Positions 57,624 through 61,400 of a stretch of DNA of 64,000 nt are shown one piece after another (position 1 is the stretch's first letter; each line of letters begins with the position of its first letter). A model generated the notes under the pieces. It did no database searches and was not told the origin of the DNA. It saw only the letters and a program-made list of their open reading frames with translations. The position numbers and the translations under genes were made by a program. Origin of the DNA: Caldifarciminota bacterium SM23_42 (lineage in GTDB: Bacteria > Hydrothermota > Tepidihabitantia > SM23-42); contig LJUJ01000008.1 in assembly GCA_001303785.1 (NCBI GenBank), positions 62,001 to 126,000 of the forward strand, read 5' to 3'.

Positions 57624-57664
57624 GTTCCCTTTGATGGAATGAAAAAAAGTAGTAAATGATTCGG

Positions 57665-57685
57665 CCCGACATTAGCGATGTCGGG
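57665..57685 (+). terminator. terminator-like hairpin after rsmB
   Basis: CCCGACAT, five bases, ATGTCGGG: an 8-bp perfect stem 42 bases past the stop. No T-run, so termination efficiency is uncertain. Confidence 0.5.
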
Positions 57686-57800
57686 ATCGGTTCTCCGCAA
57701 AATTTGAGTATTCTCGTATAATCATCACAAGAAAAAGCATACATATAGAAATACCCCGTGATTTCATGCCTAATATCATGAATTAAGGCCATATTAGTAC

Positions 57801-57828
57801 TTGACAAATATCAAATAATATGTAAAAT
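57801..57828 (+). promoter_or_regulatory. mraZ promoter
   Basis: TTGACA (57801-57806), a 16-bp spacer, TAAAAT (57823-57828). The -10 is directly abutted by the MraZ repeats. Confidence 0.75.
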
Positions 57829-57852
57829 GGGGTGAAATGGGGAAAAATGGGG
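57828..57852 (+). promoter_or_regulatory. MraZ operator, three TGGGG repeats
   Basis: TGGGG at 57828-57832, 57838-57842 and 57848-57852: three direct repeats with an exact 10-bp period, which is the layout bound by MraZ upstream of its own gene in other bacteria. Here the array starts in the -10 and ends over the start codon, so binding should block transcription. Confidence 0.85.
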
Positions 57853-58329
57853 AACATTAGATTTCGTGGATTCTTCACGCATATCCTAGACGACCGCAAA
57901 CGACTGGCCATACCTAGTCAGTTCCGTAATGTTTTGAATCACGAATCAGAAGGCCGGGTGATTCTCACCCCTGGTTATGATCGTGAAATTGCTGTCTATC
58001 CCTTGAAGATATGGGAGGAGATCGAAGACAAGGAGTTATTGTCTCTCTCCATGGATTACTTACAGTCGCGTCGCTACCGGCGCCATTTCACCTTTGGTAT
58101 CAAGGAGGATCGACTCGATGCCCAAGGAAGAATATTGATCCCAGATTTCTTGCTCGCGCATGCCCGGGTCACCAAGGAAGTCGTGATTGTTGGTGAAATT
58201 AACTACATTGAATTATGGTCTCCTGAGAATTATGCGGTGTTTGGTAAGGAAGTTGAGAAATTCTATTCAGAAGATGCTGAAGGCATCGAACGTTTAAGAA
58301 GGAGGAAAGATGAAAATACAAGCCGTTGA
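57847..58329 (+). CDS. mraZ: transcriptional regulator MraZ
   Basis: 160 residues from the ATG at 57847 (MGNIRFRGFFTHILDDRKRL). A GTG five codons earlier is in frame but lies inside the operator repeats. Two AbrB-type swapped-hairpin repeats: DDRKRLAIPSQFR and DAQGRILIPDFLLAHA. Represses the dcw cluster by binding the TGGGG array. Followed, with 20-base overlap, by the STAS gene. Confidence 0.94.
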   Translation: MGNIRFRGFFTHILDDRKRLAIPSQFRNVLNHESEGRVILTPGYDREIAVYPLKIWEEIEDKELLSLSMDYLQSRRYRRHFTFGIKEDRLDAQGRILIPDFLLAHARVTKEVVIVGEINYIELWSPENYAVFGKEVEKFYSEDAEGIERLRRRKDENTSR

Positions 58330-58651
58330 GGCAATGAATGACAAGAAGGTTTCATTTTTTCTGCCGAGTGGTGAAATCGACGAGCCTGGATTCGAAAAGA
58401 TAGAACTCAAGTTTAAACAGATGATCGAAGAGGGTGATTTCAATATAATAATCGATCTTTCGCGGGTGAGTCATATTAACTACAAGGTCGTCGGATGGCT
58501 CATCGAATATCAACAGAAATTCAAGAAATACGGGGGTGATATAAAGCTCGTAAACGTTTCACCCTACTTGTACGATATCTTAAGATTATACGGCTTTTAT
58601 CCGTTTGAAATCTATCCATCACGCAGAGCCGCGCTCAAGAGCTTCGCCTGA
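58310..58651 (+). CDS. STAS-domain protein lacking the phosphorylation-site serine
   Basis: 113 residues, one STAS (anti-sigma-factor antagonist) domain: FNIIIDLSRVSHINYKVVGW, with the beta strand and helix start as in SpoIIAA. Where SpoIIAA has D-S-S-G, this has N-Y-K-V, so the phosphorylated Ser is absent. AGGAGG lies inside the mraZ end. A STAS gene inserted between mraZ and rsmH is not a standard part of dcw clusters. Regulation of cell-wall genes by partner switching, or a structural role, is open. Confidence 0.8.
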   Translation: MKIQAVEAMNDKKVSFFLPSGEIDEPGFEKIELKFKQMIEEGDFNIIIDLSRVSHINYKVVGWLIEYQQKFKKYGGDIKLVNVSPYLYDILRLYGFYPFEIYPSRRAALKSFA

Positions 58652-58654
58652 TTG

Positions 58655-59542
58655 ATGGCACAGCAACAGGTTTTTCATCAACCTGTCCTAGTAGATGAAG
58701 TTATTCATTGGATGAACCTGAATGACGAGGGCTTGTACTGTGATTGTACGGTCGGTGGTGCGGGGCATCTTGTGGCCATGTTGAAGAATACCGACGCGGC
58801 GCGGTTTGTCGGTATCGACTGCGACCCCGAGGCAGTCGCCCATAGCCGCCACGTTGTGGCTGATTATCGCAATCGGTGTTTTATCTTCGAAGATAACTTT
58901 ATTAATCTAGATTTAATCCTTGATAAAATAAACATCCGATTTGTCAATGGTATACTTTTCGATTTAGGTGTTTCATATCATCAGCTAACGACCTCGGCTC
59001 GTGGATTCAGTTTTGACCGAGCGGGTGATTTGTTAATGCAGATGTCGCCAAAAACCGAATCCTTGCGTGACAAATTATACAGAGTACGCGAAGATGAGAT
59101 AATGCGTGTTTTGAAGGAATATGGTGACGTCCGTAATTATCGGAAGTTGGGAAAAAGAATCTTTGAACTCCGAGATGCTCTCCATACGACTCTTGATTTG
59201 AGAAGTGTTGTCGAAGAATCAGTTCCAAGACGATACTTGAAAAAGAACCTACACAAAGTATTTCAGGCTTTGAGGATTTGGACGAATCAGGAGTTGACAA
59301 ATCTCAGGCAGGGTTTGCTTGTCGCCTTCCGAAAACTAGAAACCAAAGGCAGGATGCTCGTCATCGCCTACCATTCGGGTGAGGATAGGATAGTGAAATG
59401 TTTTTTCCGTGAGTTGAAACAGGGAGGCAAGATTCGAATGTTAAACAAGAAGGTGATAAAACCTCGAGATGAAGAGGTTAAGAACAATCCGCGTGCGCGA
59501 AGCGCAAAGATGAGGGTAATCGAAAAATGCGTGCGCTCGTAA
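58655..59542 (+). CDS. rsmH: 16S rRNA cytosine-1402 N4-methyltransferase
   Basis: 295 residues from the ATG at 58655 (MAQQQVFHQPVLVDEV), right after the STAS stop; a TTG one codon earlier is the alternative. Motifs: CTVGGAGHLVAMLK (SAM), GIDCDPEAV, FDLGVSYHQLTTSARGFSF split at Thr-Thr, and IAYHSGEDRIVKCFF, where the usual Ser-Leu-E-D is Ser-Gly-E-D. Overlaps ftsL. Confidence 0.95.
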   Translation: MAQQQVFHQPVLVDEVIHWMNLNDEGLYCDCTVGGAGHLVAMLKNTDAARFVGIDCDPEAVAHSRHVVADYRNRCFIFEDNFINLDLILDKINIRFVNGILFDLGVSYHQLTTSARGFSFDRAGDLLMQMSPKTESLRDKLYRVREDEIMRVLKEYGDVRNYRKLGKRIFELRDALHTTLDLRSVVEESVPRRYLKKNLHKVFQALRIWTNQELTNLRQGLLVAFRKLETKGRMLVIAYHSGEDRIVKCFFRELKQGGKIRMLNKKVIKPRDEEVKNNPRARSAKMRVIEKCVRS

Positions 59543-59778
59543 TTTTCATCTCGGTTATCATTTATCTCTTCGTGCTCGTGTTCATTGAGAGTGAATTGGT
59601 GAAGATTGAGGTACGCATGGAGGAGTTGAAGAACCGTGCTATCGCTTTGAGGAATCGGAAAAAGCAATTGGAATCCGAATTGATCGACATTGCCAATCTC
59701 GCAAACATTGAGGCTTCGGCAAAAGCGATGGGGTTTGTGTTCCCGGATGATGATGATGTGTTAGGGGTAGTCGAGTGA
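59527..59778 (+). CDS. FtsL-like cell-division protein
   Basis: 83 residues: one transmembrane helix at about 5-22 (VIFISVIIYLFVLVFIE) and a leucine- and charge-rich coiled coil from about 24-68 (VRMEELKNRAIALRNRKKQ). Length, topology and position between rsmH and ftsI identify an FtsL-type divisome protein even though FtsL sequence is poorly conserved. Confidence 0.8.
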   Translation: MRALVIFISVIIYLFVLVFIESELVKIEVRMEELKNRAIALRNRKKQLESELIDIANLANIEASAKAMGFVFPDDDDVLGVVE

Positions 59779-61400
59779 TCCGAACGAAAATTCTCAATTT
59801 CCTTCTCTTTTTCCTCTCGCTGGTCTTTTTCTCCTATCTTTTCTATATACAATGCTTCAAGCATCAATACTACGAAGCAAGAGCGAAGCGACAGCACGAA
59901 AAGAAATATGTTCTGTTGGGTACCAGGGGCAACATATATGATCGAAATGGTATCCCTATTGCTACATCGGAACCATGTTTCAGTGTTTTTTGTACACCGC
60001 GCTATGCGGTTAGAAAAAATGAGCTGGTTCGTGAAATCGCCGGGGTTTCTCGTAAGTCACGCGCTCAGATAAGAAAGTTGGTCGACACCCGTGAGTTCTT
60101 CTGGATCGAGATGAAGGTGGATAAGAAGCGGCGTGATCGATATCTGGCGATCGACGATCCAAGTATCGGTTATACCAACGACTTGAATCGTCTCTACAAC
60201 ATGCCCGAAATCTTTGCCAGCCTGATCGGTAAGTGCGGTATGGACAATCGTGGTATCGAAGGTCTTGAGCTGCAGTTTAACGACATCCTCAGCGGTGAAT
60301 CGGGATTTGCGGTATATCAAAAGGATCCGACCGGTGGAATCTTTCCTTATCATAATCATCCCGAGAAGGAACCTCAATCGGGCAAGGATGTCTACCTGAC
60401 GATCGATCTCCAGTTGCAGGCGATCCTTCACAGGAAACTCAAGGATTGTCTAGAAAAGGAAGATGCCCGGACCGTAGCCGGCTTGATCATCGAACCGAGC
60501 ACGGGAAGAATTCTTGCCATGGTTAACATTGGAAGAAACGGTGATCATAGAAATCATGTGGTCTGTGATGAATTTGAACCCGGGTCCACCTTTAAACTAG
60601 TGCCTTTGACATTTGCGCTGCAGAATGGGGTAAAGGAAACCGATGTGATCGACACCCAAGATGGTAAGATAAGAGTGCGCGGACATCTTATAAACGATTA
60701 CCGAGACTACGGTATTGTCACAGTGCGCCAGGCCATTGCTCATTCGAGCAATGTTGCGATGGTGAAGTTATCGGAAAAATTCGATCGGGAAAACTTCTTC
60801 CTCTTGCTGCGAGATTTTGGGTTTGGAGAGCATACCGGTATTGAATTCCCCGGTGAGGTACGAGGTCGATTGCCTGACGCTACCAAGGTTAACGATGTTG
60901 AATTTGCGACCCTGGTTTTTGGCCAAGGACTGACCGTGAATTTGCTTCAGCTGTCGATGGCCTATCAGGCAATCGCGAATAGCGGAGTTTTATACAAACC
61001 CAATATTTTGCAGGAGATACGAGCAGGGAAGAAAATCATCCAGCAAAACCGTCCGTTGAGGATAAGACGTGTCGTTAGTTCGTCGATGGCTCGGCGCGTA
61101 ACCGATATACTATGTGCAGTTGTTGAAGAAGGAAGTGGCGCTGCTGCTTCCTTTAATGACATCAAGATAGCAGGTAAGACAGGAACCGCTCAGAAAGTTG
61201 TTGATGGTAAGTACTCAAATAGCTCTATCGTTACTACCTTTGCAGGCTATTTCCCTGCTGCAGCACCCGATTACCTTATCATGCTCATGATTGATGAGCC
61301 GAAAAGCGGATATTGGGCGAGTACGATCGCGGCACCAGTATTCAGAGAAGTTGCTCATAGCATATATCAGATGAACTCGCATCGTTATGCGGCTAAGTGA
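59775..61400 (+). CDS. ftsI: class B penicillin-binding protein FtsI-like
   Basis: 541 residues: membrane anchor at about 8-30, a dimerisation domain (GTRGNIYDRNGIPIATS) and a transpeptidase with the three motifs PGSTFKLVPL (active Ser at about 271), SSN at about 322 and KTGTAQ at about 467. It cross-links septal peptidoglycan with FtsW. Overlaps ftsL by four bases and murE by 14. Confidence 0.92.
   Translation: MIRTKILNFLLFFLSLVFFSYLFYIQCFKHQYYEARAKRQHEKKYVLLGTRGNIYDRNGIPIATSEPCFSVFCTPRYAVRKNELVREIAGVSRKSRAQIRKLVDTREFFWIEMKVDKKRRDRYLAIDDPSIGYTNDLNRLYNMPEIFASLIGKCGMDNRGIEGLELQFNDILSGESGFAVYQKDPTGGIFPYHNHPEKEPQSGKDVYLTIDLQLQAILHRKLKDCLEKEDARTVAGLIIEPSTGRILAMVNIGRNGDHRNHVVCDEFEPGSTFKLVPLTFALQNGVKETDVIDTQDGKIRVRGHLINDYRDYGIVTVRQAIAHSSNVAMVKLSEKFDRENFFLLLRDFGFGEHTGIEFPGEVRGRLPDATKVNDVEFATLVFGQGLTVNLLQLSMAYQAIANSGVLYKPNILQEIRAGKKIIQQNRPLRIRRVVSSSMARRVTDILCAVVEEGSGAAASFNDIKIAGKTGTAQKVVDGKYSNSSIVTTFAGYFPAAAPDYLIMLMIDEPKSGYWASTIAAPVFREVAHSIYQMNSHRYAAK

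Follow-up and report, generated by a model that had tools for sequence, protein, structure and literature searches.

A predicted STAS protein lacking the phospho-acceptor serine is encoded between mraZ and rsmH in the dcw cluster and is a candidate regulator of division genes

Few bacterial operons have been studied as much as the dcw cluster. In the window, by which we mean the whole stretch of 64,000 nucleotides that was analysed, the beginning of this cluster contains an additional gene encoding a STAS protein, designated here dcw-STAS. The locus is organized as follows.

57801..57828, plus strand: putative operon promoter, TTGACA (57801-57806), 16-nt spacer, TAAAAT (57823-57828)
57828..57852, plus strand: MraZ-box-like operator, TGGGG at 57828, 57838 and 57848 (10-bp period)
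57847..58329, plus strand: mraZ, dcw transcriptional regulator (PF02381 7.9e-23, TIGR00242 1.2e-26)
58299..58305, plus strand: Shine-Dalgarno sequence AAGGAGG for the STAS gene, inside mraZ, kept in nearly all relatives of families f1-f3
58310..58651, plus strand: dcw-STAS gene (113 aa), from Pfam match, fold model and residue signature
58655..59542, plus strand: rsmH (mraW), 16S rRNA methyltransferase (PF01795 4.5e-78, TIGR00006 2.3e-75)
59527..59778, plus strand: ftsL-like gene, next in the operon, from weak DivIC/FtsL matches and position
59775..61400, plus strand: ftsI-like gene (PBP), an ORF with homologues at the equivalent place in nearly all loci
from 61387: murE-like ORF after the ftsI-like gene, with which the dcw cluster continues

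An equivalent of the promoter layout was found upstream of mraZ in most relatives. The third TGGGG repeat overlaps the mraZ start codon and the -10 box is close upstream, so that the leader of the dcw mRNA may be only about 12 nt long. Judged by eye, repeats of the TGG[G/T]G type lie ahead of mraZ in most WOR-3 loci, whether or not these carry the STAS gene, and TGGTG variants of the repeat were seen in relatives. Between mraZ and an upstream rsmB-like gene lies an inverted repeat (57661-57692, GGCCCGACAT..ATGTCGGGATC) without a T-run. An earlier note on this DNA had claimed a translational overlap between mraZ and the STAS gene, and indeed the STAS ATG is located within mraZ, giving a 20-nt overlap that is shared by most of f1/f2, the AAGGAGG motif doubling as mraZ coding sequence. 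The two-base gap to rsmH given in the same note has to be corrected, since the STAS stop is separated from the rsmH ATG by 3 nt (58652-58654), or by 0 nt should translation of rsmH begin at the TTG at 58652; the gap or overlap between these two genes is short in most f1-f3 relatives. The idea of a fixed co-expression with division genes is supported by the overlap with mraZ, by the short distance to rsmH and by a position kept across relatives. As read from the DNA, dcw-STAS has a co-transcription layout with mraZ and rsmH under a putative MraZ-box-like operator. Gene order and operator are like those of the canonical dcw start mraZ-rsmH-ftsL-ftsI (PMC8871954, PMC8475190), from which the locus differs by the extra conserved gene between mraZ and rsmH; the term STAS is not mentioned in PMC8871954.

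The 58310-58651 ORF encodes a single-domain protein of 113 aa, whose match to PF01740 (4.6e-12, 46.1 bits vs a curated cut-off of 22.6) assigns it to the STAS domain and which also matches STAS_2 above its cut-off (2e-7). The AF2 model (pLDDT 86.8) displays a STAS topology with a TM score of 0.79 to 1th8_B, and the best PDB structural matches retrieved by Foldseek were SpoIIAA in complex with SpoIIAB, then RsbV. These profile matches and this model bear out the STAS domain that had been read at this place. A deep member of the group (L179) has no Pfam match, yet is predicted to adopt a STAS fold, with a TM score up to 0.84. The gene is not a chance ORF, given that it is kept in 23/23 genomes of the same GTDB-like family, that dN/dS, where computable, is about 0.01-0.16 and that a non-Ser motif is present in 67/67 dcw-linked STAS. 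Profiles and model thus indicate that the ORF corresponds to a real STAS protein.

N57-Y58-K59-V60 of dcw-STAS was aligned to D57-S58-S59-G60 of SpoIIAA, as had been claimed earlier, and a HMMER alignment to PDB SpoIIAA chains agrees with it. Residue 58 is the start of helix 58-73 in the AF2 model. The complete signature of the window protein, H55-x-N57-Y58-K59-V60, is accompanied by a second tyrosine, Y86, with which the next helix begins. In a comparison set made of matches to the dcw-STAS profile, which does not survey STAS proteins as a whole and counts close relatives repeatedly, position 58 of the 67 non-identical dcw-linked proteins is Y in 52, F in 6, T in 3, I in 2, L in 2, A in 1, V in 1 and S in 0, hence aromatic in 58/67 and another residue in 9/67. 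The same position in the non-dcw bin (60 rows) is S in 59 and T in one; the latter, L057, is a dcw-STAS truncated where its contig stops, and a further row, L122, is poorly aligned (YIASAW), Ser being present in 58/58 once both are set aside. H55 was recovered in 56/67 dcw-STAS vs 3/60 in the non-dcw bin and Y86 in 62/67 vs 3/60, and position 57 is N or H in 54/67 dcw-STAS. Tallied by family, position 58 is aromatic in 18/22 and Ser in 0/22, the aromatic residue being absent in f4 and f8 (T/A/I, L), f219 (L) and f101 (V). The phosphorylatable Ser characteristic of anti-sigma antagonists (S58 of SpoIIAA) was therefore found in none of the 67 dcw-STAS, in agreement with the earlier claim that standard Ser phosphorylation is lost. 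Taken together, these alignments indicate that dcw-STAS represents a distinct, locus-bound STAS subfamily in which a conserved H-x-[N/H]-[Y/F] patch takes the place of the phospho-acceptor site. The window protein displays both features of the group, namely the place between mraZ and rsmH and a non-Ser site with Y58 and Y86.

The genome is a MAG of the WOR-3/Stahlbacteria type, named relatives with these labels being found at 74-94% identity. Within the class, carriers of the gene belong to f1-f4 and f8. Profiles of increasing breadth were then run across the phylum and the loci read, which added families f11, f12, f16, f31, f36 and f37, and WOR-3 carriers amount to 56 genomes belonging to 11/37 sampled families. 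The gene is located between mraZ and rsmH in 54/56 of them, the contigs of the two others (G001, G044) being masked or ending on the mraZ side. Direct succession of mraZ and rsmH was seen in f5, f6, f7, f9, f10, f13, f21, f25, f26, f30, f32 and f33, among others, and f37 is mixed, with the gene in G142-144 and a 32-nt gap instead in G145 and G146. The dcw-STAS of f16 (L170-L173) carry N- and C-terminal extensions, reaching 156-165 aa, and overlap the rsmH reading frame. The last profile search covered 390 genomes. About 243 of these do not belong to WOR-3, and in this subset the loci of the better-scoring matches (39 + 20) were read. Among these loci, the mraZ-STAS-rsmH order was found in 14 genomes (G351, G210, G176, G323, G174, G275, G356, G170, G285, G277, G317, G318, G215 and G300) from 11 families, counts that are lower bounds because only better matches were read. 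The order is thus present in 22 sampled families and at least two phyla. Absence from this locus in all relatives, which the earlier note had named as the outcome speaking against its proposal, is not what was observed.

On a STAS tree built after removal of the signature columns, dcw-STAS needs 2 changes vs 34.8 when shuffled, and a single dcw-STAS group was not rejected (AU p=0.459, signature columns removed, with few columns and an unsettled bootstrap). A near-single origin of dcw-STAS is thus not rejected by these sequences. Presence of the gene on the rsmH+ftsI tree requires at least 7 changes vs 24.5 when shuffled, which fits ancestral presence followed by losses, gains being also possible. 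Since STAS distances follow ftsI distances (r=0.92), descent is mainly vertical. Identity to the nearest relative is 93% for STAS, 90% for MraZ and 72% for RsmH, and within-genus identities are 87-93%, 83-91% and 64-72%, respectively. The dN/dS ratio of STAS is 0.008-0.16 where synonymous sites are unsaturated and lies below that of rsmH in most pairs; within the genus, saturation of synonymous sites often prevented its calculation. These values indicate strong purifying selection on dcw-STAS. Families f4 and f8 (L053-L059, L103), in which the aromatic residue is absent, branch as sister to those class families that are without the gene; the position of this one branch would fit a relaxed role ahead of gene loss.

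dcw-STAS is like SpoIIAA/RsbV in being a single-domain STAS protein of about 110 aa, in its best PDB sequence and fold matches and in the point at which the helix following the switch loop begins. It differs from them by H-x-[N/H]-Y instead of D-S-S-G, the phospho-Ser being absent, by its location in dcw and by scores far under the TIGR00377 and TIGR02886 cut-offs (31.2 vs 53.45 and 32.5 vs 114.75 bits). SpoIIAA itself is a GTP-binding protein (PMC8256260). The window protein is the sole STAS of its genome, in which no SpoIIE phosphatase was found, nor any RsbW/SpoIIAB-type kinase among four of the six PF13581 matches, the other two being weaker; these four are three kinase-length frames (735, 728 and 647 aa) and one 150-aa kinase-tail frame. 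A diverged kinase partner might be among the weaker two. At G000:C13:49532-51541 (L138), a PAS-type sensor kinase is present as two overlapping frames of 572 and 150 aa, by a frameshift or a real split, and adjoins a response-regulator-like ORF. A HATPase of about 150 aa, conserved in most f1/f2 genomes (L139-L147), could pass mistakenly for RsbW. It was rejected as such, being part of a hydrogenase-type operon (DRTGG-like, ferredoxin-like, PHP-like and NuoE-like flanking ORFs, names read off the sequences) with no sigma module. In some relatives, STAS modules of the Ser type occur separately, together with HATPase and SpoIIE domains, which makes the contrast with dcw-STAS visible. In G001 (L021:7800-9463), a truncated ftsI is closely followed by a SpoIIE-HATPase frame together with a Ser-type STAS, a neighbourhood that is unreliable because the scaffolded chromosome is interrupted by 100-N gaps every ~2 kb. 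The partner switch envisaged in the earlier note, and the RsbW-like anti-sigma partner that it suggested looking for, thus have no counterpart among the genes listed, and a classical partner switch is not supported by the predicted gene content. The structural function that the note named as its other option is still conceivable, as is a role as an adaptor. The protein might still be an anti-sigma-factor antagonist, either bound to an RsbW-like kinase without Ser phosphorylation or switched by Tyr phosphorylation at Y58. Its fold and nearest sequences are those of SpoIIAA/RsbV, the tyrosine found in 52/67 proteins sits exactly at the phospho-Ser position, and SypA is a STAS protein active unphosphorylated (PMC8256260). 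SypA and BtrV are non-canonical STAS-only proteins with partners other than the classical sigma switch but, unlike dcw-STAS, they retain the regulatory Ser (S56, S55) (PMC8256260). We regard such an antagonist as improbable, given the lack of a second STAS and of SpoIIE, the sensor-kinase nature of the PF13581 frames listed, the hydrogenase-type context of the small HATPase of relatives, the replacement of Tyr by Phe, Thr, Ile, Leu, Val or Ala in 15/67 and the separate location of genuine Ser-type modules.

In the MlaFE lipid transporter, the STAS protein MlaB has a structural role. dcw-STAS, likewise STAS-only, could be a structural subunit of a membrane complex, like MlaB or the STAS domain of SulP, rather than a Ser switch. 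MlaB was retrieved by Foldseek (6zy3, TM 0.53), and the genome encodes an MlaE permease and no other STAS. MlaE is, however, equally present where STAS was undetected (f9 and almost the whole of f6), whereas none was detected in the carriers G010 and G011, its occurrence being independent of the dcw-STAS gene. Moreover, MlaB is a far poorer structural match than SpoIIAA, its family score is 13.6 bits vs a cut-off of 90, and in the loci examined the gene is always beside mraZ/rsmH, never with ABC genes nor linked to mla genes. An MlaB-like role was therefore rejected, and a membrane-complex subunit in general appears very unlikely. Docking is a common use of STAS domains, and operon membership and conservation would also suit a general divisome or cell-wall scaffold binding FtsL, FtsI or Mur enzymes, with no role at MraZ. 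We give this little credence, as the fixed place of the gene is between mraZ and rsmH and does not adjoin fts or mur genes. It is also unlikely, although slightly less so, that dcw-STAS acts on RsmH, as a chaperone or activity modulator made just ahead of it. The close spacing of both genes argues for such an action, as does the divergence of STAS within f1/f2, which tracks that of RsmH better than that of MraZ (r=0.80, partial 0.60). On the other hand, RsmH works without STAS in families with mraZ directly before rsmH, and it evolves faster than STAS.

The explanation that we favor, still tentatively, is that dcw-STAS is a phosphorylation-independent docking protein that holds a protein of its own operon, MraZ being the most likely target and RsmH the second, and thereby tunes dcw autorepression. 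It would use the surface by which SpoIIAA/RsbV contact their partners, and would be either permanently 'dephospho-like' or controlled through the H/Y patch, to which a partner or small ligand would bind. MraZ is a repressor of its own cluster, repression by MraZ requires linkage to the cluster in M. genitalium, and an antagonistic effect between MraZ and MraW was described in E. coli (PMC8475190). Given this autorepression and this antagonism, a third protein made between the two is a natural candidate for setting their balance. Co-divergence does not single out MraZ, the partial r given ftsI being 0.54 for STAS-MraZ vs 0.55 for MraZ-RsmH, and the presence of the MraZ-box-like operator with or without the STAS gene implies that STAS is dispensable for that regulation. 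A role of dcw-STAS in tuning dcw expression or division is what we infer. Going further, dcw-STAS might be the first dedicated post-translational regulator of MraZ, ancient and present in several phyla, which would sense a signal from the envelope or from division, through a ligand or partner at the H/Y patch, and set MraZ repression of the division and cell-wall cluster; we consider this doubtful.

In the literature searched, dcw, mraW or rsmH were never paired with STAS, and matches combining mraZ and STAS were unrelated by title. The link between cell-wall genes and a STAS protein, which the earlier note had presumed new, thus has no description there. As far as checked, the locus-bound, Ser-less subfamily is undescribed, the fold and the family being known. 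To our knowledge, no regulator of MraZ activity has been established. The recurrence of the gene between mraZ and rsmH points to a putative, unrecognised regulator of division genes, and its conservation there, in 11 WOR-3 families and at least 11 others, makes it a concrete candidate for a regulator of MraZ. dcw-STAS defines a STAS group with the classic phospho-Ser consistently substituted and, as this residue is mostly replaced by an aromatic one, a phosphorylation-free STAS mechanism becomes testable.
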